From: Saccoglossus kowalevskii
Taxonomy: Eukaryota > Hemichordata > Enteropneusta > Harrimaniidae
DNA: 21,879 nucleotides
Assembly (NCBI RefSeq): GCF_000003605.2
Contig: NW_003133378.1
Span: 110,645-132,523 of the forward strand
Direction of reading: 5' to 3'
The position numbers and the translations under genes are program-made. Below the pieces are notes generated by a model. That model was given only the letters and a program-made list of their open reading frames with translations, was not told the origin of the DNA and searched no databases. The stretch's first letter is position 1, and each line of letters starts with the position of its first letter. Shown here piece by piece: positions 2,178 to 19,459 of this stretch.

Positions 2178-5100
2178 GTAAGTTTGCATAAATTAATTGC
2201 CCCTCTTATTCAGGGTATGATTAGTGAATTTAAAATCGCTATAAATGTGTTGTGATCTTAGTTCAATAAATTGAAGTCACGTTGCGAGGACAAAAGCAGC
2301 TTGGGGCTTTTTCTGTGAATCTAGTCAGTCTTGTACGTGCACACGGACGTGAAGTGAATTGAAAAGTGAATATTTCTATCAGAATTAAAGAAACGTAATA
2401 GAATATATAAAATAAAAAAAAACGTAAGAGAACGTAAATCGTCAATTGTGACTACATTATAACTTAATTTCAAATTGTTTATTAGATTTTCATGACTGTA
2501 AAATGTCTCATCTCAGTTCTGTGCACAGTAATTCTTGTGCACAAATTTTTAGATTTTATTTTGCTGTTTTTTTTTTAACCCAACGATTTAATATTTTGTA
2601 GTGCTAAAAATAATCTCACAAATTATATCCGGTCATCATGTTATTATTTATTTATTCAAAATGTTTTCATGATTTTTTCCCCCAACAAGCAAAAAAAAAC
2701 AAAAAATTATGAAATTGATGTTAAATGTTTTTTGTGCTTTTGATGTCTGACTTAATGAAAATCTTAATGAAATATGAAGAAACTTAATGCAGTTGGTGTT
2801 TGAAGCATGAATCTAGTCTTTGCACACTTTCATGTGGTTTTAACATGATTCTGCAGTTCTGTGTTTTCAGGCTATTACATTAACTGCTCAAATTTCTCAA
2901 TTCTGTAAATAAAGTAAAATAATACATTTCAGTTTCCTAGTACTCCCATGATTGAGCTTTTAATAAATTACTGCGTTCATAAATGCTGTTCAATCCATAA
3001 GCGGAAGCCCCAAAACTAAAGTTGAATGGGAGAGAAGAATTCTTGAGATTATAGAAAAAAAAAACATTTTTAAAGTATGCATTGAGGCAAACTAATATAT
3101 TTTATCACACATAAAAAATGGAATACTTTTGTGCTTGACAGGTACTTTATTACAGTATAGGTTTCTTTAATAGTTTTAGCCCTTCAGGAAATTTAACTTA
3201 GCCGCTTAGTTTCTAGACAAGTATAAAATGAATGCAAAGCAATATATCACCGCTATGGTCTGCTACCATTGATCTGTCCTTGACCAATTACTTATTCTAC
3301 TATTACTATTATTATCAATTTGACAGGGCTGATTGTTTGGCAGTTGTGAATTTAATTAATTTAGCCCAATGTTAAAATGCATGGAATGCTTGGTTATTGT
3401 TTAGCTCCTTGGTTAAATCATGGAGGTTAAAATAGATTTTAGCTCCATGGTTAAATCATGGAATCACTAACCATAGAAAAAACAATGACTTTGTTAACAT
3501 CAAAGTATGATAATTGTCATGGCTGCAAATGTTTATTTTGACTGTTTATATAGTCACATTAAAAATAAGCTAATTAATGCAATATAAGATAGTTCAAAGC
3601 CATTAAACATGACAAAGTTTGATCATAGTAAATCATTCAAAAATTGTTGTGCAATTATTCACATAGATGCATGCCATTCATATTTAAAATTTTGACGGAG
3701 CAAGAATGCGTTTCCAAGAAAACGTGTGCAAATTAATCTAAAAAGCGATCATTTTGGAAAATTTTCCATGGTTAACTAATCTTCAAAATTCTCCCCATTT
3801 TTCTCGACAGTCATATTTGGCCCTAATAACACCACGCATCATTTTTTAGCACACATTGTAGCTCACGGAACAAAATTTTTAGATATAATGGAATGTTTCT
3901 GCCATATAAACCTAATTGTAAGCTATTCTAATAATGCTTTTTAGATTTTTTTTTAGGTCATTTTGTGGAAAACTCAGTTGACAGAATAATATCATGTGCA
4001 CAGTTAGTGTATTTGCTGTGCATTGTAGTATTACCCTCAATTCATTGCCCAATGCCTGACACTATCTTTTATTACCTAATGTTATCTTTTCCCTGTTCGC
4101 ATCTTAGTAATTGGGCAAGAAAAACATTGTTGTATTACCCATCAATGCTTTAACTGTAATCAATGCTTAAAAATGTAGATTTATTAAAATTACTTAAAGT
4201 AAATCCTGTTATCTTTCTCAGCCACGAAAAAGAAGAAAAGGAGTCGATGGGAACCACAGGTCTCTGCAGAAACAACACCAGTTGCAAGTGTTTCTATTGT
4301 TCTGCCACCAAATTTAACTGCAGATCAAGAAAAACAGTTTCTTTGTAAGTATTTCTTCACAGTAATGTTCATTTTGTCAATACTTTGAACATGTTGGGTT
4401 AACAAGAAAACAGTTGCCTAAGAATTGAAAATTGATGCATGTATTCTTATAAAGCAATCTGAAATATGTCTTCTTTTTTCAGAAGTTTCATCTAAAATTA
4501 TCATTGATTTCAAATTATTCATGTTTATTGCCAAATAAATTTGACTCCCGTTGTGTTAATTGTGTTTTTATAAATATGTGCTAGATGATAATAGATAGTC
4601 CTCTCCCATACCGTGGGATTACAGGTGGATACCAGAATCATATACACATGTCGCATAGCTATGAATAACATGTATATAACCACGAGTTTATAATATTTGC
4701 TTTTCCAAAATATTTGTGTTGTATACTCTTTACTTGCGTATAATAACATGTGATATAGCGTTGCAATTTAGGTTTTTCAAGTTCATTTAAATAAAAAAAA
4801 CATTGATTTGCAGCGTTTAATTGTGGGAAATAGTGCTTTATAGCATTGTTTGAGTGAATACACTAACTTAAAAACACTGTTCATCATTAGCAGAGAACTG
4901 AGGAATAAGAAAACTAATAATGTTGAATATTCTGATTTCCTTATCACTCTCAGTGGTTGGTGCTTGAATTATAGGACAAAATTTATTTTATAGTTCATTG
5001 ATGTCAAGCATTTGGATGAATGTATATTTTGTATTTGTCAAATTAAAAAGTTAATTTTGGAATCTTTTTGCCAGTTCTCCTTTAAATTAAAAGATTTTTT

Positions 5101-8100
5101 ATAATCGTACAATCATCATGCACTTTATTTTTAGTTTTTATCTGGCTAAAAAATTAGGAATAGTTCAGATGATATATTATGTAAATTAGCTGTTAGTTAC
5201 AAATTTATTTTTGTTGAATCTTATTGTACAGCTAACGTTTATTTCATGAAAATGTTAAATAAAAAAATATTGTTTGCATTTAGCTTTTGTTTCCTTGAGA
5301 ATTCCATATTTATTCATGAAAATAATTATAACTGTTTAATTATTATAAATTGCTGTGATTATATTATTCATATCATATTGTTGACACTTGTTTTCTCCTC
5401 ATTCTTAACCCATTCTGTTACAGTGCACTTGCAAATAGACGAGCAAAGTCGCCGACTGCGGACAGGTGATCTGGGTATTCCACCTAATCCAGAGGATAGG
5501 TTTGTCTAACCAAACTGTATTGTTTTTTTCTCTCTTTATATATTTATTTTGCTAACTGTGATAATTATGGGATATCTAGGTTGAAACCTAGGTAACTGAC
5601 ACACATAAACTTTCAACCGGTCATCAACCGTAACCCATCTTTGTTCTTAGCATTACTACTATGACGGGTATCCCGAATCATGCCCTCACGTTCTCTGTCG
5701 AGGAGAATCTATTTTAATTGGTTAGTCGATTCGGGCTTCTATAAGAGCTTTGAAGTTAACGATTGCATTTGACGCAAAATTATTAACCAGTTTCTCTCCA
5801 AGGCCTTAATTGACTTTCATTATTTCAGACCAGATTTGTAACCATATCTTGGTTTTCAGATGGTGCGTATTCATTGCTGCCTGATAATAACCTTATTTTT
5901 ATTTTACTACCTAACCATTTCTGTTTTGACAGCATAAATTGTTGCTTTCATACATAGTACCAGTGACCCTAAATTCAAAAAATTCAGTTTTGATCTGCCT
6001 TCTGCCTAAAATTGTGTATCAGCAGGGGGCTATTCCAAATTTTTCAAATCAAATATTTTCATGATTCAAGAAAATATACTTTTTTTAAAAAAAACTTAAC
6101 AAGCGTTGGAATCTGATCCTTTTTATTATTATTAGCTGGCTTGGTTTGTGCATGCGTTAATGAACAGGTTTTATCAGATTTAACAACCAGATGTTTTCAT
6201 TTGATTCTAGCTGGCTGTGATTAGTACCCTTCCCATGACTTTTATTTTGAACATCCTCTATATTTTAAATACACCGTTAAACCAAAAATTTAGCACATCC
6301 TTTCCATTTGAAATGTTCATTTAATTCACCTGATACATATGATGGAAATTACTTGCGTGTGATAGGAACTTTTTAGCATTGTAGCAATTATTGGGGGGGG
6401 AAAATGTAAAATCTGATGAAATCTTTTCTCTGGTTGAGCAAGTTGTCTTTGTTTGTCCTACCTAGTCTATGAATATCACTGCATTTTATATTTTTAATCT
6501 CATTTTTTGCAACGTTTGTCATAGTAGCTTTTTGAATACTATACAAGACTTGTTGTTCCAGATATGCAACCTTTAAATATTTAAAGTTTCTTTCCATCTA
6601 GCTTTGTTTGTCATGTGTGATCTCAAGCACTCATCCAAGACTTGAATTTAGCAGGAAGCCAAATTGGTTATTCTCATGAGGCTATTAGGGGGCACTAATA
6701 TGCAAATTACTTTGTTGGAAACAATGTAAATCAATTGAATTGCAAAATATTTGTGAATTTTAATTGTTCCTTTAGGAAATTTTGTCTGTAAAAAGGACTT
6801 AAATGTGTTTTTTTTTCTAGTTTATAATGTATTTAATAGTAGGTATTTTATTTGCATATTAGTTTCCCTAAGTTGACAGAATTTAATCAATCCTGCTGAT
6901 CCCAAGCCAATCTCATTACCATTTAACACCGCAAGATGTGTCTTTTCTATTGTTTTCCCAAATCGTTCTTTGCAACCCAAATACTGCATATTTCACTGTG
7001 CCTGACTTCTAATGGTCTACTATTCATCAGAAAATCCCTTTTGATGCAATACAATAGGCACAGTTGTGTCACACGTTAGTCCATCAGATGAAAAAAAAGA
7101 TTTGTTTCCATTCAGGGAGAGATTAAAAAAAATTGTACCTACAATACCCCGGTATTTTATTTTAATTTTATTTTTTTAGAAACTTTCAGATCCCTGTACT
7201 CTTGGCTTTACTAGATAAGACCACAAGAGTTATGTTTAGTCCTATTTGTAGAAATGTGCAAATTACCTCACATGGCCATCATATAATACCACAAGTTATG
7301 ACTGAATGATGTAAAATGTTGTAATGATGCCATTAATTTGATTCATTACTGATGTGAAACAAATCTTTCTTTCTTTTTTATGTCCTTTGTGCAAAATTCT
7401 TTTTCTGGCCAACATCACTTGTACCATATCTTTTATTTGAAATGCATGTATAGAGATGTAGGGACATGTGCACTTGGAAATCAGTTTTATAGTCTTTCTG
7501 TTAAATTCTAGAACTGAAATAAATAAAGCAGTCAAAAGCTGCTTGAGATTCATTGGGTAGACACATCTGATGGTTACAACCCCACTTTCCTTGTTATAAT
7601 TCAAGACCAACTACATGTACGGTAGTTTTGTTTTTATTTGGCACTGTCTGATTGGATGATGAATCTTTTTGTCGTAGAATGACATTAACATTTGTAATTA
7701 ATCAGATGTAGCTACATGTAGTAATGCAATAGCTCAAATATTTCTGGAGGTCATTTGCTTTGAGTTTCATCATTGAAACTGGGTGCTTTCAAACTTGGTG
7801 AGGAGACTTAATTCTTCTATTGATGCAGCAGATTTGAATTTACTGCAACACATTTCCGGTTCAAAATCTTCAAATTAACGATATGGTGACCACCTTCTTT
7901 AATTCCAACACTTATTTTCTGCTTTTGTCCTGCATGTAATGTTTGTCTCGTCATCCTCTGATTGTTATCACTGTACTTATTATTATTATTATTATTGTAA
8001 ATAACCTAACATTAGACATTCTTTGGTGAGTTTCTTTTAGTGGTGACAGTAGTTTTAATATATTTAACTGTTCCTTACCACTTCATGTTGATAATATTGC

Positions 8101-11100
8101 CACACTAATTCTTTCTCAGTTAATGCAATCGTCGTGTTATTAAAAAAGTTTCTTCCTACTTCCAAATTGACACCCACCCCCCTGTTCACAATGACAGTTG
8201 TCAACTATATGTGTGTGAAAGTAGAAATATTCGCTGTTGAATTTTCATTCTATGCTTAACTTTGCATATTACTTGAGTTTTAATTCAGCTCTTTGATAAA
8301 CAAAAATAAAACTGAGATAATTATTTAGCTTGATACAGTAATCTTAAATGTATTAAATTTGATACAAGAGCCAGCAATTGTCCTGGTCATTTAGATTCAC
8401 CGATCTTGCCTGAACATTTTGATGACAGAAGCATAAATTTTAAAATATTCATGCTAATTTTAGTCTGCAGCTAGAACGTTGTCATCTTTATTATTTTACT
8501 GATATGATAGGTTAAATATGCTGCATTAGTTGCAGGTGTTGCATGTATGTAGTGTATTCCCATGCCTATTAAGCATGTTTTTATCAATCTCTTCTGTGTT
8601 TCCCCTAAGCTGATTTGGTGTGAGATCTCAAATATGCCTTGTATTTGAACACTAAAATTAAAAGAAATGTTTCTTTGCTGAGAAATTTGGACTAAGGCTT
8701 CGGAGGAACGATATTTGGCCAGTAAAATGCTGGAACAATAGAGGTTCTTTAAAATGTTCTTTCAGCAAAATGAATATGAAGATTAGATATTAATATACTG
8801 GGATTACTTGTGTTAAATTAATTGCATCTGTTTGAAGCCCACCAATGACATTTTTCAAAATATTTAACTTACCCCCGATATGCTCAATGTATGTACTTGT
8901 ACCACATTTCGATGAAACTGTAGAACTCGTCCCTGCCATTTCTTTTTTGTTGTGAGAAAACTCGATCTGTTAAAATCTGTTTAATATGGTTATATGTTCT
9001 CATCTAATTCTTTGTATATATTTATATTTTATGTTATATTAGCCTGAACATAAAATCTCATCTTCGACCCCCATCTTTCCTCCCAACAACAACCAATGAT
9101 TTAGGCATAAAAAACTATGACCCCTCCTCTTCAACCCCCAGCAAACAATATTATCGATGCCATGATTTCATAATTTACATTAAAGGGCTGTTGATTTTAT
9201 TTTTATACAGTGTGATCAAAACCTTAGCAATTACACTGCTTTGATTTCAGAGACATTGTATTCCAATATGATTACAAATAAAACTCTGCCTTGTTTGTAT
9301 GTCTCGGTCTGTCAAAAGATATTTCTGTCTTTGAGTGTGCCAAGAATCAGTAATAAAGACCCTAAATAGGTTGGTATAGACATAGTTAACTTGATTAATA
9401 ACGTAATCTGTGCATTTCTATTTTATTAACAGATCCCCTTCTCCAGAACCTATTTATAACAGCGAAGGTAAGCGGTTGAATACCAGAGAGTATCGTACAC
9501 GTAAAAAGATTGAAGAAGAGCGTCATAAACTGATCCAAGAGGCGCTTGTGTTAAACCCAGAATACAAGCCACCTGCTGATTATAAGTAAGTTGGTTATGT
9601 GACAGATATTGATAGCAAATCATTTAATTTACAATTGCAAAATAGTTTAACGCAGAAGATAGCTAAAATATGTTTATATGAATGAATTTGTATGTTATTT
9701 TAACAGACCTCCTGTTCAGAGGGTTAGTGACAGGGTAACAATACCTCAAGATAAGCATCCAGACATTAATTTTGTCGGCCTTCTAATAGGCCCTAGGTAA
9801 GTCTTGTGTGAGTGATAAATCTAATGCCTTTCTGCAAACTTTCCTTGAAGCAATGAATCCGTAGATTGTTATTCAAATGATTGTAGGAAATTTCAAGATC
9901 AATACTGTTAAACTTCAGTATTCTTACTAGTAGACCACCAAATTTCAATCCTAAAAGTTTGACAAATGTGGCTATGAGTAAATTTTTGTTCTTGAAAATA
10001 TCAAAAAAAGGACGACTGTCAAAAAATTAATCTACTAGTCTACTAAATATCTCTGAAATCAATTTTTGACTCGCATAATTCTGTGCACTATTTGTTAAAA
10101 TGACTAACTTTGTATTTTAAACAGAGGAAACACTTTAAAAAAAATGGAAAAAGAAACAGGGGCCAAAATCATGATTCGTGGAAAAGGTTCTGTGAAGGAA
10201 GGCAAGATTGGACGCAAGGATGGACAACCATTGCCCGGAGAGGATGAACCATTACATGCCTTAGTGACTGCGAATAATGCTGAAAGTGTCAAGAAGGCAG
10301 TCGATCAGGTAAAGCGTCTGTCTGACAGTACAACGTATTAGGACCCAAACCCCACCCCATGTTATTCAATTTGGTCGGTCAGCTTTGGATAATCAAGTTT
10401 ATTAAAATTGACAATTTTGCATCAACTGCACCAAATTTTATAATTCAATATGCTTTAAATCTGACTGAAAATTCAAATTGACGGTCATTACCTACAATTT
10501 AAATTTGATCTGGCTTCAGAGAGTTCTGATGCTATGAAGAAAAATTATCTTTTTTCTAAAACTGACAGGATGTTATCAACCACAAATGTTTTATATTATT
10601 GTTATATTATTATTGCATTCGTCGTGTTTGCTAACATTTTGTCATCTTACATATTACCCTATTTGGTTCTGTGGTTGCTATGGTGTTTTTTTGAATGTAC
10701 TTTATTTTACCAAATGCACTGTCATGTTTGCTTATGATGTTTCCTATTTTCTTTTAGTTGTTGGTGATATTGTGAATGCTGTTAAAATTTGCATCCCCTT
10801 GCTCTGTTTAATCCCCTTTTACTGAAAGATTGGCTCAGAAAAAAGTTCTTTTCAATTGCTCGTTTTGTTAATGTGAAAGGGAGAAAACATTGTTTTGGAA
10901 TACTGCAACAGTCATTACATTTCCTTCATTAGATTCGCACATAGCGTATTAATAAAAAGATTAATTGACGATTGATCATCCTCTTGTTAGTTGACGAAAA
11001 CAATTTCCTACATTCACACTACGTTTTTGAGTGGAATGACAAGAATAATCGTCTGAGCCAATATATATATTCTAGTTTATTTGTACCAAATGTTCATGCT

Positions 11101-13713
11101 ATTATCTTTTCCCACAGTATTAGATGTATTGACTGCAAACCTTTTGTTTTGTGTTTAATAATGCTTGCAAGACTTTTGCCAATTGCTATTTTTATGCATA
11201 AAGTTACCTATATGTTAAATGCATTGCAATCCATCTGTGTCATTGATGAAACTATTGAAACATGCGTTACTAAAACCAGGTTTGCTTACAGAGTGCGAAA
11301 ATGCGTATAGCTTAAACCATCCATCTTTTTGTTGTCTCGGGCAAAATAAAACCATGTACTAATCTGTATAATACTCTCACTAAAGGCAGTTACAAAGTAC
11401 ATGTACTAATTTCACTTTTCTACCTCAATGTACTTATACAAATATTTCAGTTTTAGCATCTATCTAGATATCTTATTCACATCATGCAGTTAATGACATA
11501 TACCTCAAGTTAAAACAGGTGTCTCCCTGCATGACTGTAGGCTGTTTAGTTTCCACATGTCCCCCAAAAATATATTATGGCTGTGTTCAGTGAAATTAAT
11601 TATAATTTTTCTAGCAATGAGAAAATCTCCCTTTTTGTTTGACAGTCATGAACGTTTAGTTATATATCCTTACTATAATAGTACAAAATATTGGTTGCAG
11701 AATCTTTGTGTAGTCTTCATCCTAAAGTTGTCCTTTGCTTTAAATGGTTTGGGGGGGGGGGGGGATGTNNNNNNNNNNNNNNNNNNNNNNNNNNNNNNNN
11801 NNNNNNNNNNNNNNNNNNTATTCACTTCAAATCAAACCCACACTCAGGTTTCAAAATATGCACTTCAAATCAAACCCACACTCAGGTTCCAAAATATGCA
11901 CTTCAAATCAAACCCACACTCAGGTTCCAAAATATGCACTTCAAATCAAACCCACACTCAGGTTCCAAAATATGCACTTCAAATCAAACCCACACTCAGG
12001 TTCCAAAATGTGCACTTCAAATCAAACCCACACTCAGGTTCCAAAATATTCACTTCAAATCAAACCCACACTCATATTCACTTCAAATCAAACCCACACT
12101 CAGGTTTCAAAATATGCACTTCAAATCAAACCCACACTCAGGTTCCAAAATATGCACTTCAAATCAAACCCACACTCAGGTTCCAAAATATGCACTTCAA
12201 ATCAAACCCACACTCAGGTTCCAAAATATGCACTTCAAATCAAACCCACACTCAAGTTCCAAAATATGCACTTCAAATCAAACCCACACTCAGGTTCCAA
12301 AATATGCACTTCAAATCAAACCCACACTCAGGTTCCAAAATATTTGTGCCTTGCATCTATCCTACAGTTTACTCTAGCTACAAATAGTAGGAAAAGTAAC
12401 TCTAATACTAATTATTGTGCAGTAAACTAAGGAGCTGTGACTAGACCCTTTAGCTTGTTGGTCTTTTGTAAATTGCCCACTTAGCTTATTTATTGTAAAA
12501 GAATCTGCTTAGTTAACATGAAGAGGTTACACGATTTGAACATTTCAAAACAACATTTTTTTTAGTTTAAAATAGTGTTCATCAGTCATCATTTTTGTAC
12601 TAATTTTATTTTCGTCTTTTCCAGCTAGCTAAATGTACTCACTGTATTTTTATTTTTATCTAGCTGTATATGTTTCTAGATCCACAATTTGCTTTTCTGT
12701 TGGCCTTAGTTACCACCATCATCTACCTTCTTCCTGGAATGCAGACTTCTCTCACAACTAGTAAAACATCTTTGATTCATTTGTGGGGTGAGATCAAGTC
12801 AAATCATTCAGTCTCTTTCTATCCTCTATCTGGTCTCAAGATGGGACAGGGTTCAAAAATATACTGGTTTGACTGCTGATGTCAGAGTATACTATCAATC
12901 TCAAACAGATTCTCACCAGACCTTTACTAGATTTATGGCTGTAATATCTGTCAAAACTGAGGCCAATACATCCAAGTAAACTTCAATATTACATACTTGC
13001 TGGGTTAGCTGTGTTTAGCTTGCACCTGGAGCAAAATTCCAACAGCAATGCATGACTGGATTTGTCAGTGAAGAGAATAAATAACTTCAGTCAGTAAACA
13101 GTAAAATGTATATCTTCATTCAATCAGAAAAACTTGCAAAGGTCATAAATTTCAGATTGTTTTTTGGGGGGCTCAATATTGAAATGACTTTCAACTCATT
13201 TTGCCTGAAAATACAATTTAAAATACTCAGATGTTGACTGTAAATAACAAAAATAACACGGCCACTTACAGTGTCAGGGCACTATCAGGTCACTCCAATC
13301 CCTGATCTACTGGTTCAATCCAGACCTACTGGAGCTTAATTATCACTCCTTGTCAGACCATTTTGAATATATTTTATCAGCACATGTCTTCTAATTACTT
13401 CAATTATTGTGCCTTTATCAAAAGAAAATTCAAGACCTGCTGTGTTATCACCATTAGGCCTACACTTTGGGTCTAATTAACCACATTACAGAAGTTTAGT
13501 TAATATTGATAGTATTTCTCTGCAACAAATTATTTTTGAACCCTGGACAAGCATTTTCAATCAACTGGGATTTGATTTTCAAAGACTGCATGTTTTTCAG
13601 CATAAATTTATACCTAAAATGCATGATTTAGCGAAAGCATGTCTGTGAAACAGAATATCCAACACAGCAGCAGCAGCTACATTTAGATTGATATTTGCGA
13701 CAGTTGTGAACCC

Positions 13714-13780
<67 letters not shown>

Positions 13781-16700
13781 GTAGACAGACATAGACAGAC
13801 ATAGACAGACATAGACAGACATAGACAGACATAGACACGCATAGACACGCATAGACACAGACATAGACAGACAGACATAGACACAGACAGAGACAGACAG
13901 ACAGAGACAGACAGACATAGACAGACAGACAGACAGACATACAGACAGACATAGACAGACAGAATTGAATGAATGAATGAACAAACAGACGAAGGAGAGG
14001 GTACCTTTCCAAAAATTTAATTTGAAATTGTTTGGAAAAAAAATTCCTTCTCACTAAGCTCATTAGTGACAAAATAGTTCAGTGTTGTTGACTGCATTTC
14101 AATCGTAATGGTGACCAACATCACCTTTGACAAAGTTGGTCGTCTTAAAGAATTTGACAAACAAAATGCAAGTGCTTTGATACATCTAAGTAAGACCATT
14201 ATTCAAATTAGAACGTCCTCTAAGACCTAACTGACACAATGTTCACTTCATTTTATGGCAACTGCTGTTACGACAGAAGAGAAGACAGTTTTAATTTCCT
14301 TGGCATGCGCAAGACACGTTTTAAAATTCTTTCTCTGCGCTATCTCTTGGATATTCTGAATTTTACAGTTTGGGAAATTTAAGGTGAGAACTAAGAACCA
14401 CCTGTTTAGAATCCCAGTTGACTTATGCATACACCAACACACCCTTGTACTCACCACATGTGAAGGTCACATATCCATGTTTCTCTTAGATCAATGAGAT
14501 CATTCGGCAAGGGATTGATACACCCGAGGGACAGAACGACTTGAAGCGTATGCAGCTGCGCGAACTTGCTGCCCTGAACGGCACTTTACGTGATGCGGAA
14601 GCAGTAAGGTATTTCTGGACGTACTTATATTTTCTTTTTCTCCTCCCGTTTCTCCCCTTGTGTCGTCTGTGTATGTGTTTGTAGATCAATGAAATTATCA
14701 AACAGGGAATAGAGACGCCTGAAGGCCAGAATGATCTGCGCCGCATGCAACTACGGGAACTTGCCAAACTGAACGGCACTCTGCGAGAGGACGACATGAT
14801 AAGGTTCATTTGGTTTTTATTTCTTTGGTGTGCACTTTTTAGTCAGCAGTTGAATATTTATAATTTTGTTATTATCCTAACAGTGCTATAACATGAACTT
14901 GCTGTGCATGAAATGCATGCTGCAGTCTTTAGAGCAGTAGAAACCAAATTGTGTGAATATGTTTGCTGTATACAAGATTTATCTGAAAGTATCCTCTTTC
15001 CATGCCCCATTATGATTTAATTTTTTAAAGCAAGTTTAAGAGATTTATACTTGGGTCAACATATCCCTTTAATAACAGGTGGTCATATACTTGAGGATCA
15101 CCCCCTTAAAAAATGTCTAAATGATTCACCATGTGCTAGATGAGAGATAATACTGTAGCTCATAATGGAAATAAAATCGCGAAATGAGTTGCATTATTGA
15201 TTTCCACATCACTTTTAAACAAAAATGTTTACAGTATTATTTACATACCATCTATATACAATTTAAAAAAACATTCTCTTTCCCAGAGACTATGGGTCTT
15301 TTATCACTAAGCTAGGTAGTCACTAGGAAACTCCCTCGCTAGTGGCTCTCTGTGGCTTCCTAGGTCAGTTCATAAGCTTGAAGACTCTGCAAGGGAGTGT
15401 TTAAAAACTTGTGATTCTGAATTTAGTCATGTTGAAGCATGGTTCACCCTTTCACATCCAGGAAAAGAAAAATGTCCAACACTCTTTCACTCTTTTTACA
15501 ATTTCAATAAACTTTATTTTTAAGATTAAAGCCATTGTCTCTGTCCTGATAAAACATATTTGGTGTAAAAATATCTAAAATTAAGGGGTGGTCTTGTTCC
15601 CAGGGAAGTACTAGTTTATTTAACCCAATAACAACAATATGAATATAAAATGTGGCACCCACTTTTCCTTCAAAAATAGTCTTGGCAGAGGATATTTTCT
15701 GATGCATCTGATTGATCAGTTCAATGTAGGCAAAGGTTCTTATTGGCTTGTTTGAAACATACTGTTCTTTCTGATTGGATAAACTGAATGCTAATTTCTA
15801 ATTTGTTAACTTATACTAATAACATATGGCACTGTTAGGAGGAAGATATTTTACAACATCGATGTTTGTGTGGTTGTAATTCAGTTCATAATTTGAACTA
15901 TTGCATGCCATCCTTCCATCCCTAACTCCATCTTAGTTTTAAATAATTGTTTTTGCATGGCCTATCTACCATTATTTACCAGTATTTCTAGTAGAATAGT
16001 CTTTGGCATGAAATCAATTCAAAGGCATGCTTTGCAGTGTTCAAAAATTGCCAGAGAATCACGGTTTGGACTGTTAAATATTTTGAAAAGTGCATGCAAG
16101 TGCAAAAAAATCACTGGAAAATTATATCAGGTATTTAGATACTGAGATATTGAGGATTTATTTTTTTAACGACACTCGTACGAATATGGTTTCAGTTTAA
16201 AATGCTTGATGTAGGTCATTGCAAGAAGACGGACTAAATCCATATTAGGTTTGTTAAAACTAAAAAGGTAAGTTCAGTTATTGGATGTGTTGGGAAGTGG
16301 GCATTTCATTTGGAAACGTTTGTTGCATTGTTACTTTTCTGTCATCTTTGTAGAGTTATTAAATTAAAATTACTCGAAATTGTTTGTTCTTGAGACACAT
16401 GGTGATGTTATACATCTATCTTGACCTTTCATTGACATATTTACGTAATGCTGCAACATTTGACTTTTTGGTAGTGAATGTTGAATTTGTAAGGTTCACC
16501 TTTCTTGATCCAAAATGTCATCTTTTCATGAGCCTAAAACTATTTTCTTTTGCTGATCAAAATTGTTTTCTGTTATAATTTGAAATGCATTGTTGAAATG
16601 ACAGAAAAGTAGGAATGTTTTGTATCTATAAAGGACTTATTAGTAACTACTTATTTGCATATTGTTCATGCGTATTAGGTGCACCAATTGTGGAGCAAGT

Positions 16701-19459
16701 AGTCATCGTACATGGCAATGTCCTGAAAGACAAAATATTACCAATACTGTTGTGTGTACGCAGTGTGGAGGAACTGGTCATATTGCAGCTGATTGTCGAC
16801 AGAAACGAGAAGGTGGAGGTGGTTTTGGGCCACAGAGTACTGTAGACAAAGCTAAAATGGACAGCGAGGTAATTAATCATATAACTGACAATTTGTTTGT
16901 CTGAATTAAATGACTCGTGGTTAATTACCTTATGTCATGTCATTCAAAAGCAATTTGAATTGGCAGACTCGTTGCTATCTTTTCCTGCAAAAACAATTTG
17001 AAGGCATTTGTCAGTTTTTAGTTCCAGTTCAGGCCACACCAACTATGGTTGATAAGTATAAATAGATCATTGCTTTCTCTGCAACTGCATGAAATTGTTC
17101 CTTTCATAATCAATCTTTTCCAACATTTTTGTTGTCATTGATTCAACAAGACCATGTAAAAGCGTTAAATGATATTTTTTTGTTCGAGTCTGTTTTTCTG
17201 AGATGACTGGGTAAATTTAAAGTTGGTATAATGATCATACATATTGGGTTACAGGTGGACATCTTTTTTGTAATTTAACCAAATATGGTCAATTAGTGCA
17301 CATGCCAGTTTCTTTTGAATGCAATGTTTATGAATTCTGAATTTATTCTGTTCTATAACTATAGTATATGTCGCTGATGGCTGAGTTGGGTGAAGGACCA
17401 CCACCTCCCGCTACATCATCTGCACCTCCACCTCAACCAGCATCTGGACCCAGACCACTCTTATCAACACCAGTCAATCCACCACCACCATTGGTAAGGA
17501 ATCGTTCATTCACCGTGAGTTAATTCCTGCTGCTACAATTTATGTGTTGTCATGGTGATTATTTGGGTTTATTGGCTTTTGAAGCGAATGCTTACTAGTT
17601 TAACCTGAAAATACAAAAAAAAATATCATTTATTTACTTTCAACTTTGACTGAAAGCTTCAAACCACATTGCATTGCAAATCTACATCAAAGTTCTCTTT
17701 CCCATAATGCAATATTACCCATGATGCCTATCTACATTTCTCTTGATTTGTTCAATTTGTGATTTTTTTCTAACCATGACAAAGAAGGGGGTTATCATTG
17801 TCCCACATTGTACTTTATGTGGATGATGTTCATTATAAATAAATTTATTTGAATATTTGCTGTTTTTTTCGTGAATGTTTATCTATAAAAAAAAAAAAAA
17901 TCTTGCACTATCTATGTCAATACAGCAGGCACCAAAATCAATCTCTTGCAACATTTTAATGTTCCTGGGAACATTGCCAGTGGTGTTTGTTGTATAACAG
18001 TAACATTGTCAGTGTGTTAGTACCTTTATGGCTTTCAATTTCAGTGCTCACTCATACATGCCATGAGGACTCTCTTAGCCAGCTTGTCAGATTCTTGTCT
18101 GTTCAGTATGGATCTAAACAAATGTACATGGGTCAAATAGTGTTGTCTTGGTTACTGTACTGCAACAGTGTCTTTGTCTTTTGTATTCCTGACTGCATAT
18201 TAGCTTACATTATCCATCAGACTTCTTAGTTATTGACAATATGAACAGACAAATTGATGAGCTCACTGGATTGGGATGTTATAAAATAACATGTTTTTTG
18301 AATCTTTACAGATGGGTCAGAATGCTCATACACCACCGTGGGCAAACAAAGAGAAACACCAACATCATCACCAGCACCAGCACCATGGGAGGATGGATAA
18401 CAAACCACCCAGCTTGCTTGGATCTTCACCAAACCAACAACATCCTCCAAGTCTAATGTCACAGCAAGTCCAGCCCCTCTCGTCTTTACCTCCACCACCT
18501 CCACCAGCTAGTAGTGGCAACCAGCAGTGGAATCAGCTTCCGCCAGCACCGCCAGGCTCTCAAGGTAATAATACTGGCATAGTAAGTCCCCAGAAAAACA
18601 TTGTAAACAGTCAAATTTTCACTGCTATTTTCGTGGTGGAGCAAGTGAGAATTAAATCATATGAACATCGCTACGACATTATGCAAATTTGGTCTCCTGG
18701 AATTAAAGGAGTTATTTGTGATATGTAATTTGCCGATGTTTGAGGTAACTAAATTTTATGAAATTCACTAAAGCTTCCGGTGCCTAAAAATTCATTGCTT
18801 AAACATCTTGCAATGTTAATAAAATAATAAAAACGTTTATATCATGTGGCATTCAATATTTTCAACTGTATATATTTTTCTAGCTCCTCCATTACCACCT
18901 CCATCTTTGCTGTTTGCGCCGCCCCCACCACCCCCAACAAGTGAACCACCGCCACCACCACAATCGTCAAGTTCACAGTGGCAATCCCAACCAAGTAAGT
19001 ATAGAATTGAAAATGGAATATCACATCCATATTAGTTTGGGCCAGAGTAATTCAAGTTCAGTTTGTGTACCATCAAAATTTAGAACAGAATTATTGAAAT
19101 CATTTCAAATATTTATAATAAAAAAAAAAAAAAAAAAAAAAACGGTTTACACATTATCTGTATTAAAACCATACCTCTAGTAAACCCAGTTTAATTCAGG
19201 AAAATAACTGTATTTTGTTTTCATATAATAAATTTTTGGCGAATACGAGTGCACACAAAATCTTGATTTACTTTGGCTTACAGAGAAGAGTACATTTGGT
19301 TCATGACATGTCTGTGGCGGTGCATAATAGCTAATATGTAATTTTTCCTGTTATACAGGCAGTGCTCCTATGTTGGTTACAACACATTCTGGAGCACCGC
19401 CATGGCATCAACATCAAATACAAGGTACACCGCATGTTATAGTCACAACACACAAGTGA
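1964..19459 (+). CDS. SF1: Splicing factor 1 / branch-point-binding protein, whole gene (13 coding exons)
   Basis: SF1 binds the intron branch-point sequence and, with U2AF, marks the 3' splice site during early spliceosome assembly in the nucleus. Thirteen exons join in phase to give about 580 residues (vertebrate SF1 is about 640). Numbered from the ATG at 1964: SF1-type N-terminus [13 protein letters not shown] (from residue 9), U2AF-ligand motif KKKKRSRW with its key Trp (74-81), helix-hairpin (about 95-137), SPSP (139-142), KH domain (about 195-280, GPRG loop at 217-220), QUA2 (281-320, from exon 7 or exon 8), CCHC knuckles (321-334 and 346-359), and a Pro/Gln/His-rich tail with PPW motifs. 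The vertebrate protein has one clear knuckle; two are known from yeast and fly homologues. The C-terminal end is less certain than the rest. The family assignment is very secure. Confidence 0.97.
2178..4221 (+). other. SF1: SF1 intron 1
   Basis: A 2044-bp AT-rich intron from GTAAGT to TTTCTCAG. It contains one 24-bp direct repeat (3401-3462) and several homopolymer runs. Short open frames (for example 3965-4153) show no homology or splice support, and I see no other gene. Confidence 0.85.
3401..3462. repeat. 24-bp direct repeat, two copies
   Basis: Copies at 3401-3424 and 3439-3462 (starting TTAGCTCC and ending AAATCATGGA) differ at one base and start 38 bp apart. A local duplication, of no known function. 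Confidence 0.8.
4222..4344 (+). CDS. SF1: SF1 exon 2 (U2AF-ligand motif and start of helix-hairpin)
   Basis: A 123-bp exon, phase 1 to phase 1, from CTTTCTCAG to TTTCTTT|GTAAGT. It completes P72 and encodes [12 protein letters not shown], the UHM-ligand motif whose tryptophan inserts into the U2AF65 UHM pocket in known SF1 complexes. It then encodes [13 protein letters not shown], matching the vertebrate IPPGLTREQERAY stretch that opens the helix-hairpin. Confidence 0.95.
4345..5423 (+). other. SF1: SF1 intron 2
   Basis: A 1079-bp intron, GTAAGT to TTCTGTTACAG. It is strongly AT-rich. I found no RNA gene, repeat array or supported exon in it. Confidence 0.9.
5424..5499 (+). CDS. SF1: SF1 exon 3 (helix-hairpin, [15 protein letters not shown])
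   Basis: A 76-bp exon, phase 1 to phase 2. It encodes [18 protein letters not shown] then IPPNPED, nearly identical to the vertebrate motif. The donor is AG|GTTTGT, weaker than the other donors. The split codon AG|A gives Arg138 with exon 4. The long open frame running in from 5246 is intronic. Confidence 0.96.
5500..9432 (+). other. SF1: SF1 intron 3
   Basis: A 3933-bp intron from GTTTGT to TTATTAACAG. It holds two small inverted repeats: CTAGGTT-GA-AACCTAG at about 5577-5592, and CCCGAATC/GATTCGGG arms near 5671 and 5723. There is also a short ATT trinucleotide run near 7978-7995. Frames at 6388-6597 and 7296-7610 on the - strand are AT-rich, lack homology and look like chance. No other feature seen. 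Confidence 0.85.
9433..9585 (+). CDS. SF1: SF1 exon 4 (SPSP motif to KH start)
   Basis: A 153-bp exon, phase 2 to phase 2. It encodes (R)[19 protein letters not shown], then [19 protein letters not shown] and ending KPPADY. The SPSP serines are the known KIS/UHMK1 phosphorylation sites in vertebrate SF1, so regulation of U2AF binding may be conserved. Acceptor TTAACAG and donor GTAAGT are clear. Confidence 0.97.
9586..9706 (+). other. SF1: SF1 intron 4 (121 bp)
   Basis: A short intron from GTAAGT to TTTTAACAG. It is useful as an example of a short but ordinary intron in this gene. Confidence 0.95.
9707..9796 (+). CDS. SF1: SF1 exon 5 (KH domain, first half)
   Basis: A 90-bp exon, phase 2 to phase 2. 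It encodes [20 protein letters not shown] then NFVGLLIGP, matching the vertebrate KH start up to the GPRG RNA-gripping loop, whose Arg codon is split across the AG|GTAAGT donor. Confidence 0.97.
9797..10124 (+). other. SF1: SF1 intron 5
   Basis: A 328-bp AT-rich intron, GTAAGT to TTTTAAACAG. Nothing else is visible in it. Confidence 0.92.
10125..10308 (+). CDS. SF1: SF1 exon 6 (KH domain, GPRG loop onward)
   Basis: A 184-bp exon, phase 2 to phase 0. It encodes [20 protein letters not shown], then [20 protein letters not shown] and PLHALVTAN, ending KKAVDQ|GTAAAG. This is the best-conserved part of SF1 and forms the KH fold that holds the branch-point RNA. Reading on into the intron gives ten codons then TAG (10339-10341), so retention would truncate the protein before QUA2. 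Confidence 0.97.
10309..11750 (+). other. SF1: SF1 intron 6, first part
   Basis: Intron sequence with low-complexity AT-rich open frames (10534-10825, 10972-11310) that show no homology. I find no exon, RNA gene or array before the poly-G run. Confidence 0.85.
11751..11764 (+). repeat. Poly-G run beside the assembly gap
   Basis: Fourteen consecutive G bases (11751-11764), followed by ATGT and then the Ns. It probably contributed to the sequencing break. Confidence 0.95.
11769..11818. other. Assembly gap of 50 N
   Basis: Exactly 50 unknown bases, a likely fixed-size placeholder. It sits between a poly-G run and a tandem array, so the true missing length is unknown. Confidence 0.98.
11819..12344. 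repeat. 38-bp minisatellite, 14 copies, within SF1 intron 6
   Basis: Units begin CACTTCAAATCAAACCC and end CAAAATATG. Copies start at 11823, 11861, 11899, 11937, 11975, 12013, 12051, 12079, 12117, 12155, 12193, 12231, 12269 and 12307. Thirteen are 38 bp; the one at 12051 is cut to 28 bp. Because 38 is not a multiple of three and the unit lacks stops, all three + frames stay open, giving three overlapping false ORFs. Copies 1 and 8 share a TATT prefix and a GGTTTC variant, which points to a duplicated seven-unit block. Confidence 0.97.
12345..13713 (+). other. SF1: SF1 intron 6, middle part
   Basis: Unremarkable intron sequence. Frames at 12670-12879 and 12788-12979 are open but have no recognisable motif and no matching splice sites. 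A GGTTCAATCC at about 13312-13321 resembles a Pol III B box, but no A box or tRNA fold accompanies it. Confidence 0.75.
13714..13980. repeat. Compound (ACAG)n / (ACAT AGAC)n microsatellite ending in (GAAT)n
   Basis: Pure GACA/ACAG repeats (13714-13781) pass into interspersed ATAGACAGAC and ATAGACACGC units up to about 13963, then four GAAT units. On the - strand it reads as Ser-Val-Cys-Leu repeats in several frames, which produces spurious long ORFs. It is intronic. Confidence 0.96.
13981..14489 (+). other. SF1: SF1 intron 6, last part, leading to exon 7
   Basis: Intron sequence ending CCATGTTTCTCTTAG. Overlapping - strand frames (14017-14199, 14248-14457) show no homology. The - strand frame at 14486-14809 is the antisense shadow of the two QUA2 exons. 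Confidence 0.85.
14490..14608 (+). CDS. SF1: SF1 exon 7, QUA2 variant A (likely mutually exclusive with exon 8)
   Basis: A 119-bp exon, phase 0 to phase 2, from TTTCTCTTAG to GTAAG|GTATTT. It encodes [20 protein letters not shown], then [19 protein letters not shown] plus a split Arg. It aligns along its full length with exon 8 and with vertebrate QUA2 ([20 protein letters not shown]). It departs from both exon 8 and the vertebrate sequence at ELAALNG (K or R in the others) and RDAEAV (REDD in the others), so it is the more diverged copy. A second possible donor, GCA|GTAAGG, lies five bases upstream but would break the frame. QUA2 contacts the 5' part of the branch-point sequence in the known SF1-RNA structure. 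Confidence 0.93.
14609..14684 (+). promoter_or_regulatory. SF1: 76-bp intron between the QUA2 exons with branch point crowded to the 5' splice site
   Basis: The intron runs GTATTT to TTTGTAG. After A14629 the only adenines are A14673 and the one in the terminal AG. The only good yUnAy match, CTTAT with A14627, is 18 nt from the donor and is followed by a 55-nt pyrimidine-rich tract with no AG. That spacing should stop exon 7 splicing directly to exon 8 while leaving exon 8 usable from exon 6. The layout resembles vertebrate alpha-tropomyosin exons 2/3. Confidence 0.8.
14685..14803 (+). CDS. SF1: SF1 exon 8, QUA2 variant B (canonical-like)
   Basis: A 119-bp exon, phase 0 to phase 2, from GTGTTTGTAG to ATAAG|GTTCAT. 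It encodes [20 protein letters not shown], then [19 protein letters not shown] plus a split Arg. It is the copy closer to vertebrate SF1 (REDDNR). It shares 30 of 39 complete codons' amino acids with exon 7, but many shared residues use different codons, so the duplication is old and both copies look constrained. The donor GTTCAT is weak, which may leave exon choice open to regulation. Confidence 0.95.
14804..16678 (+). other. SF1: SF1 intron 8
   Basis: An 1875-bp intron, GTTCAT to CGTATTAG. I searched it for a third QUA2-like exon (RELA-LNGT) and saw none. The small frames at 15504-15707 (-), 15957-16145 and 16384-16578 have no support. Confidence 0.85.
16679..16868 (+). CDS. SF1: SF1 exon 9 (two CCHC zinc knuckles)
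   Basis: A 190-bp exon, phase 2 to phase 0, from TATTAG to AGCGAG|GTAATT. It encodes [14 protein letters not shown] (C321, C324, H329, C334) and [14 protein letters not shown] (C346, C349, H354, C359), both complete CX2CX4HX4C knuckles, then a Gly-rich link and DKAKMDSE. Vertebrate SF1 keeps the second knuckle and, where the first would be, has a non-knuckle stretch. Zinc knuckles add nonspecific RNA affinity. Confidence 0.97.
16869..17364 (+). other. SF1: SF1 intron 9
   Basis: A 496-bp intron, GTAATT to ATAACTATAG. Nothing else is visible in it. Confidence 0.9.
17365..17493 (+). CDS. SF1: SF1 exon 10 (YMSLMAELG and start of proline-rich tail)
   Basis: A 129-bp exon, phase 0 to phase 0. It encodes [20 protein letters not shown] and ends [16 protein letters not shown]. 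The [10 protein letters not shown] motif is diagnostic for SF1. A second in-frame donor, ACC|GTGAGT, lies 21 nt downstream (exon end 17514) and would add VRNRSFT, so two donors 21 nt apart are plausible alternatives. Confidence 0.95.
17494..18311 (+). other. SF1: SF1 intron 10
   Basis: An 818-bp intron, GTAAGG (or GTGAGT at 17515) to TCTTTACAG. It contains a poly-A run (about 17887-17900). The frame at 17987-18229 has no support. Confidence 0.9.
18312..18564 (+). CDS. SF1: SF1 exon 11 (His/Gln- and Pro-rich tail)
   Basis: A 253-bp exon, phase 0 to phase 1, from CTTTACAG to TCTCAAG|GTAATA. It encodes [15 protein letters not shown], a histidine/glutamine run ([10 protein letters not shown]), [20 protein letters not shown] and a polyproline run. 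Its PPW recalls vertebrate SF1 tail motifs. Another donor-like GTAAGT at 18582 would extend it by 17 bases and end in phase 0, which does not fit exon 12. Confidence 0.92.
18565..18883 (+). other. SF1: SF1 intron 11
   Basis: A 319-bp intron, GTAATA to TATTTTTCTAG. The open frame running in from exon 11 continues to TAA at 18726-18728 and is a readthrough artefact unless the intron is retained. Confidence 0.88.
18884..18994 (+). CDS. SF1: SF1 exon 12 (polyproline)
   Basis: A 111-bp exon, phase 1 to phase 1, from TTTCTAG to CCAA|GTAAGT. It encodes [20 protein letters not shown], then EPPPPP and [10 protein letters not shown]. It is symmetric, so skipping it keeps the frame, giving a natural cassette for varying the SH3/WW-type binding tail. 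Confidence 0.9.
18995..19358 (+). other. SF1: SF1 intron 12, with poly-A run
   Basis: A 364-bp intron, GTAAGT to TTATACAG. A run of 23 A (19120-19142) could be slippage or the tail of a small retroelement, but no element body is recognisable upstream. Confidence 0.88.
19359..19459 (+). CDS. SF1: SF1 exon 13 (predicted last coding exon)
   Basis: The exon enters in phase 1 from TTATACAG and encodes [20 protein letters not shown], then [12 protein letters not shown] and TGA at 19457-19459. [11 protein letters not shown] resembles the vertebrate IPPWQQQQ...MQG region. A donor-like CAAG|GTACAC at 19424/19425 could instead splice to a further exon, but no phase-1 proline-rich exon is visible before 21879. 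Readthrough to TGA is my preferred model; the last ten residues are uncertain. Confidence 0.7.

Follow-up and report, generated by a model that had tools for sequence, protein, structure and literature searches.

Why would the gene of a general splicing factor carry, side by side, two copies of the exon that encodes its RNA-reading QUA2 helix, and are both copies used, one at a time? The question is raised by a window of 21,879 nucleotides (the whole stretch of DNA analysed, whose positions are used throughout) from the hemichordate Saccoglossus kowalevskii, lying within contig C2533 (159 kb) of a genome assembly of 572 Mb in 4830 contigs. The plus strand of the window carries a gene for SF1, the branch-point-binding protein (BBP), as given by a KH domain of the KHDC4/BBP type that is followed by QUA2 and then by a CCHC zinc knuckle. 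Its mapped parts are the following:

Positions 4222-4344, plus strand: exon reading ...KKKRSRWEP..., putative U2AF-ligand motif region
Positions 5424-5499, plus strand: SF1 exon
Positions 9433-9585, plus strand: SF1 exon, upstream (presumed)
Positions 9707-9796, plus strand: SF1 exon, start of the KH domain (presumed)
Positions 10125-10308, plus strand: SF1 exon, most of the KH domain (Pfam PF22675 KH-I_KHDC4-BBP, E 4.2e-15)
Positions 14490-14608, plus strand: QUA2 exon A (phmmer to human SF1 1k1g, open frame, splice sites)
Positions 14609-14684, plus strand: intervening intron, 76 nt
Positions 14685-14803, plus strand: QUA2 exon B (phmmer to human SF1 1k1g)
Positions 16679-16868, plus strand: zinc-knuckle exon (Pfam zf-CCHC, E 1.6e-6; donor at 16869)

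The exon at 4222-4344 is taken by us to be the N-terminal U2AF-ligand motif region of SF1, and the Pfam SF1-HH model reaches it at E 0.03, below the cut-off; the exons at 9433-9585 and 9707-9796 are likewise assigned to SF1 on our own presumption. The KH exon at 10125-10308 ends in the donor cag/GTAAAG (the slash marks the exon boundary) and has one full match genome-wide, the next match being at E 0.155. The zinc-knuckle exon, in which two CCHC motifs are recognizable by eye and one by Pfam, has one full genome match and nine weak ones (31-41% identity), and is followed on its 3' side by proline-rich exons. When the exon B protein was searched against the 572-Mb genome (E <= 10), at least two places were returned, exons A and B; this count is a lower bound, since two candidates were scored and other STAR genes were not returned. 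Neither a second SF1 gene nor a further QUA2 copy appeared in the genome searches with exon B and the KH exon, both read as lower bounds.

Some other properties of the locus and of the assembly can be mentioned here. The 4.2-kb intron upstream of exon A contains a run of 50 N (11769-11818) and, directly after it, a minisatellite with fourteen copies of a 38-bp unit (11819-12343), and a degenerate ACAG microsatellite of 250 bp (13714-13963) lies about 530 bp upstream of exon A. Near the window start there is a TA repeat (688-788), and the minus strand holds at 135-431 an open frame of 98 residues (AALNKLTKPRRKKRIHQPESSPFPVPIESIDGKPASDDHWYYYTGN...), which could belong to a divergent neighbouring gene as one of its exons and for which Pfam gave no match at E <= 1. 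The mitochondrial contig, C4830 (17,037 bases), carries COX1 inverted between ND1-like and COX2-like frames, which we take to be ND1 and COX2; in this COX1, AGA and AGG are absent, ATA is frequent at positions that we presume to be isoleucine in other animals, and AAA occurs once, at a presumed lysine. ATA read as Ile is a trait described for echinoderms and hemichordates, and AAA as Lys, the absence of AGG and the COX1 inversion have been described for the mitochondria of S. kowalevskii (PMC2697986, PMC3121625), so that a Saccoglossus is the most likely source by these traits as well.

The layout of the exon pair proposed by an earlier sequence-only reading was reproduced exactly, coordinates included: both exons measure 119 nt, both run from phase 0 to phase 2, both are flanked by AG and GT, and 30 of their 39 residues are identical. 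At the nucleotide level 80 of 119 bases agree and 39 differ, the differences being distributed over the three codon positions as 7, 5 and 27. Of the 39 codon pairs, 10 are the same in both exons, another 20 show synonymous differences and the remaining 9 encode a replacement, so two thirds of the shared residues (20/30) use different codons, in line with the many synonymous differences that had been noticed. Shared fourfold sites are near saturation (9 of 13 differ), and dS is saturated as well (undefined by NG86, 20 by maximum likelihood), with a dN of 0.18 (NG86) or 0.15 (maximum likelihood); these are pairwise values for A against B from one genome, which pool the selection acting on both branches. 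When 39 random nucleotide changes were placed on exon B in a neutral simulation (20,000 runs), a mean of 15.5 and a maximum of 24 of the 39 residues stayed identical, against the 30 observed, and a stop appeared in 67% of the runs, against none in the observed frame. Because synonymous sites are saturated while dN is low, and because the neutral expectation is exceeded, the sequences indicate that the pair is an old tandem duplication of the QUA2 exon held by purifying selection. Two further searches returned nothing: Pfam found no family in the bare 39-residue exons A and B, which are presumably too short, and tblastn of viral and prokaryotic contig collections found no relatives there, as expected.

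This divergence also bears on the most trivial explanation, i.e., that one of the copies is a misassembled duplicate, one of the outcomes that the sequence-only reading had set as its own refutation. An assembly of 4830 contigs, with the N run mentioned above in the upstream intron, might make such an error conceivable, but there are 39 differences in 119 bases between the copies, most of them at third codon positions, and their upstream flanks are unrelated (155 of 200 shuffles score as well). An assembly artefact is thus already refuted by the divergence between the copies, and we leave it next to no probability.

How would the two exons be used? The four junctions 10308-14490, 10308-14685, 14608-16679 and 14803-16679 all give open frames, and the zinc-knuckle exon joins exon A or exon B in frame, so that either exon singly yields an open KH-QUA2-zinc-knuckle frame, as had been claimed. 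When both exons are included, the first stop comes 144 nt past the KH exon (327 nt from the first full codon of that exon), and when both are skipped it comes after 21 nt (204 nt from the same codon). The pair consists, in other words, of adjacent, homologous exons of equal phase of which exactly one leaves the frame open. Together with the signs of purifying selection and the branch motif described below, of which the earlier reading made no mention, this makes mutually exclusive splicing of A and B a prediction that is well supported by the sequence.

A likely physical basis for that exclusivity is suggested by the short intron between the exons, whose signals, together with the putative branch site of exon A, are:

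Positions 14448-14454, plus strand: putative branch site of exon A, TACTCAC, found by scanning the final 100 nt of its upstream intron for the motif
Positions 14622-14628, plus strand: TACTTAT (CTTAT), the sole YTNAY of the intervening intron
Positions 14629-14682, plus strand: long polypyrimidine tract, 80% pyrimidine, with a UG-rich 3' end

At 76 nt, this intron falls below all 8 of the SF1 introns mapped besides it (at least 121 nt), the mapping reaching up to exon 17365-17493. It is also shorter than all 36 gap estimates from myosin and TCP1 genes (at least 108 nt, median about 780); these are rough profile gaps based on 73 of 73 myosin and 9 of 11 TCP1 matches (two contigs with a single TCP1 match each being left out), and three of the four smallest (108, 123 and 177) lie within one open frame and may not be introns. 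Adenines occur in the intron only at +3, +11, +15, +19, +21, +65 and +75, counted from the exon A donor. The one in the branch motif, at 14627, is that at +19, 57 nt from the exon B acceptor, and past it there are, the acceptor AG aside, only those at +21 and +65. No AG is present between the donor and the acceptor AG, and the sequence after +21 is 78% pyrimidine. The AG-free zone and the long pyrimidine tract that are characteristic of exon pairs with a distant branch point are therefore both present, and the branch adenine predicted by the motif, at +19, would, if used, lie within the approximately 50 nt from the upstream donor that define such pairs. In principle, a poor branch point could also be provided by the adenine at +65, which is 11 nt from the 3' splice site, and a non-A branch point is possible. 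A branch motif of the UACU type is in itself unexceptional, being present near other SF1 acceptors too.

In human OGDH, mapped branch points lie 25-41 nt from the donor, and a steric threshold of about 50 nt has been proposed (PMC7969005). Because 19 nt is less than this limit, the donor of exon A and the predicted branch site of exon B should not be usable together. We consider it likely that these tandem QUA2 duplicates of SF1 are spliced in a mutually exclusive manner, and mainly because of branch-point geometry. With the predicted branch site of the exon B acceptor only 19 nt from the exon A donor, U1 snRNP on that donor and SF1, U2AF and U2 on that branch site would exclude each other sterically, the 76-nt intron could not be removed, and splicing of A to B would be prevented. 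The transcript would then run from the KH exon through either A or B to the zinc-knuckle exon, and products with both exons or neither, which meet early stops, would presumably be degraded by nonsense-mediated decay (NMD) as a second safeguard. The winner would be set by a contest between the donor of A, on the one hand, and the distant branch site and long pyrimidine tract of B, on the other, probably with the participation of trans-acting factors. The outcome would be two mRNAs and two SF1 proteins, differing in QUA2 and in the stretch that connects it with the zinc knuckles.

The same frames allow a different cause of exclusivity, in which incompatible frames and mRNA decay, or competing RNA structures, and not the proximity of the branch point, would keep the exons apart. 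Double inclusion and double skipping do both yield early stops, U2AF1 products with both or neither of the comparable exons are NMD targets (PMC5224494), and only about 9% of human pairs have been estimated to be constrained by a short distance between donor and branch point (PMC7969005). On the other hand, the branch-site geometry leaves so little room that splicing of A to B is not expected. As for RNA structure, a check for docking and selector sequences of the Dscam type found no inverted or direct repeats of at least 12 bases within 14390-14900, and the RNA of 14440-14860 folds no better than shuffled sequences, 97 of 100 being equal to or better than it (z +1.56). Local structure as the cause is thus unsupported in these two intervals. 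Taken as a whole, this explanation seems to us unlikely.

A second possible donor, gca/GTAAGG, is found at 14604-14609, five bases inside the end of exon A, and maintains the frame only in combination with exon B. Might both exons then be included, giving a protein with two QUA2 helices? The shortened exon A (114 nt) followed by B keeps the frame, and the alternative donor scores 4.9 against the 5.4 of the regular one (position matrix from general knowledge), but this would place the branch site only 24 nt away from the donor, which the steric limit should likewise not allow, and exon A cut at 14604 is out of frame with the zinc-knuckle exon. Such double inclusion is accordingly given a very low probability, and exclusive use governed by the branch-point geometry remains the preferred reading.

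If the exons do compete, their signals are unequal. By the same kind of position matrix (from general knowledge), the donor of exon A reaches 5.4 bits and that of exon B (aag/GTTCAT) is weak, with 1.3 bits. The putative branch A of exon A, at 14453, lies 36 nt from the 3' splice site, in a motif matching UACUAAC at 6 of 7 positions, and an AG at 14464, between this site and the acceptor and 11 nt past the branch A, reduces the AG-free zone before the acceptor to only 24 nt. The splicing machinery tends to use new AGs that lie more than about 8-12 nt beyond a branch point (PMC7969005), and because of the AG 11 nt downstream the branch site predicted for exon A is doubtful and its acceptor less certain. 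This inequality might resemble what is expected from a regulated contest.

At the protein level, the replacements from A to B are R6K, D10E, K19R, A28K, D35E, A36D, E37D, A38M and V39I; five of the nine fall at 35-39, the tail connecting QUA2 with the zinc knuckles. Over 36 positions, B is identical to human SF1 at 30 and A at 24, and at the 7 differing positions comparable with human SF1 the human residue is found in B at 6 and in A at none. The phmmer match to human SF1 1k1g is also stronger for B (E 3e-15) than for A (E 9.9e-12), although the structures matched by both follow the same order, i.e., human SF1, yeast BBP, and then QKI and GLD-1. By these comparisons, exon B is the canonical copy and exon A the more derived, faster-changing one.

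This asymmetry invites the suspicion that one of the two, A being the likelier candidate, has remained from the duplication without a function or with little use and that B alone is used, with which the lower human identity of A, the AG 11 nt downstream of its predicted branch site and the marginal similarity between the downstream flanks of the two exons (reached by 13 of 200 shuffles) would agree. However, a leftover is hard to reconcile with a saturated dS at a dN of 0.15-0.18, when the neutral runs never kept more than 24 of the 39 residues and mostly acquired a stop. Moreover, exon A has kept its open frame, its AG and GT sites and the correct phase, and six of the nine replacements are K/R, D/E or I/V exchanges, all of which makes this possibility quite improbable in our judgement.

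What would the difference mean for RNA recognition? In SF1, QKI and GLD-1, QUA2 reads the 5' (U/C)AC part of the motif (PMC4735526), and in QKI the residues K190 and Q193 contact RNA, their double alanine mutant showing a 2-fold lower affinity in vitro and a 5-fold lower PAR-CLIP signal (PMC5626755). Human SF1, yeast BBP and QKI agree at 12 invariant QUA2 columns, and at each of these A and B have the same residue as well. Position 19 aligns with human R240 (numbered along the full-length SF1 chain, its role being inferred by alignment) and, by spacing, with QKI K190, which is placed through its three-residue distance to Q193. Here A has K, as QKI and yeast BBP do, and B has R, as human SF1 does; at the two QKI contact positions, exon A thus presents K and Q, and exon B R and Q. 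Since the invariant columns are kept and K occupies the contact position, the exon A product should bind RNA. The main QUA2 contrasts between the two proteins, which might translate into a functional difference, would be R/K at the position of human R240 and K/A at that of human R249, and a shift in RNA preference between A and B is possible. The earlier claim of "different RNA-reading helices" therefore finds some footing in the R to K change at a known contact, the K to A change and the new tail, but it is too strong and weakly supported as worded, given that all 12 invariant columns are kept, and it is safer to think of a tuned specificity than of a new one.

A search of the literature on SF1 or branch-point protein combined with mutually exclusive or duplicated exons returned no SF1 case among the matches listed, most of them judged by title and the start of the abstract, which within that range agrees with the earlier reading, to which no mutually exclusive QUA2 exons of SF1 were known. 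The main text of a survey of human tandem exons names neither SF1 nor U2AF1, so its silence says little (PMC9741552). The kind of arrangement is known, i.e., tandem duplicated exons that are spliced singly and have a close branch point; the surprise is the gene. SF1 acts as a general splicing factor, and the branch-site-reading domain of the human protein falls within the region, up to residue 370, that is described as shared by all isoforms (PMC4666396). If an animal indeed made two forms of the helix responsible for the 5' half of the branch site, the recognition of branch points might itself be subject to regulation. It is tempting to go further and imagine a self-referential switch, in which the ratio of the A and B isoforms would set branch-site choice throughout the transcriptome, including that of the SF1 exons themselves (UACUCAC for A and UACUUAU for B), and thereby autoregulate, with A tuned toward a recognition of the Quaking type; this idea we regard as speculative and rather unlikely.

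The comparison with known systems places these features in context. Human SF1 belongs to the same gene family, and its QUA2 is identical to B at 30 and to A at 24 of 36 positions, but every isoform is described as sharing its residues 1-370, which include QUA2 (PMC4666396). Yeast BBP agrees with A at one of the differing positions (19) and with B at two (35 and 36). QKI shares its residue with A and not with B at 3 of the 9 differing positions (19, 35 and 36) and the reverse is true at one (6); of the two exons, A also has the higher score against QKI (27.2 bits, B 22.7 bits) and GLD-1 (23.8 bits, B 21.8 bits). Nevertheless, exon A is still clearly SF1-type, with 46.5 bits to human SF1, and the STAR proteins QKI and GLD-1 are unlike it in being encoded by separate genes and having a QUA1 dimerisation domain. 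In terms of mechanism, exons 4a/4b of OGDH and the alpha-tropomyosin exons, the latter cited as an earlier case of a close branch point, resemble what is predicted for the SF1 pair in having a downstream exon whose branch site lies near the upstream donor and is followed by a long AG-free pyrimidine tract (PMC7969005). The OGDH intron, however, measures 118-131 nt in birds and mammals, as opposed to 76 nt here (PMC7969005), and the present pair differs furthermore in its shorter donor-branch distance of 19 nt, in that the branch point is predicted, and in that the gene encodes the branch-point-binding protein itself. By gene function, the closest known case is that of exons Ab and 3 of U2AF1 (U2AF35), another early 3'-splice-site factor, which are also in tandem and of equal length (67 nt), differ by only seven amino acids and are described as mutually exclusive (PMC5224494, PMC6821156), and for which double inclusion or double skipping introduces stops and makes the products targets of NMD (PMC5224494). 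U2AF1 is nonetheless another gene, of vertebrates, whose product is not the branch-point binder, whereas in the present pair it is the QUA2 helix of SF1 that is duplicated. If both SF1 forms are made, the two cases taken together would point to tandem exon duplication as a means by which more than one early factor of the 3' splice site was tuned.
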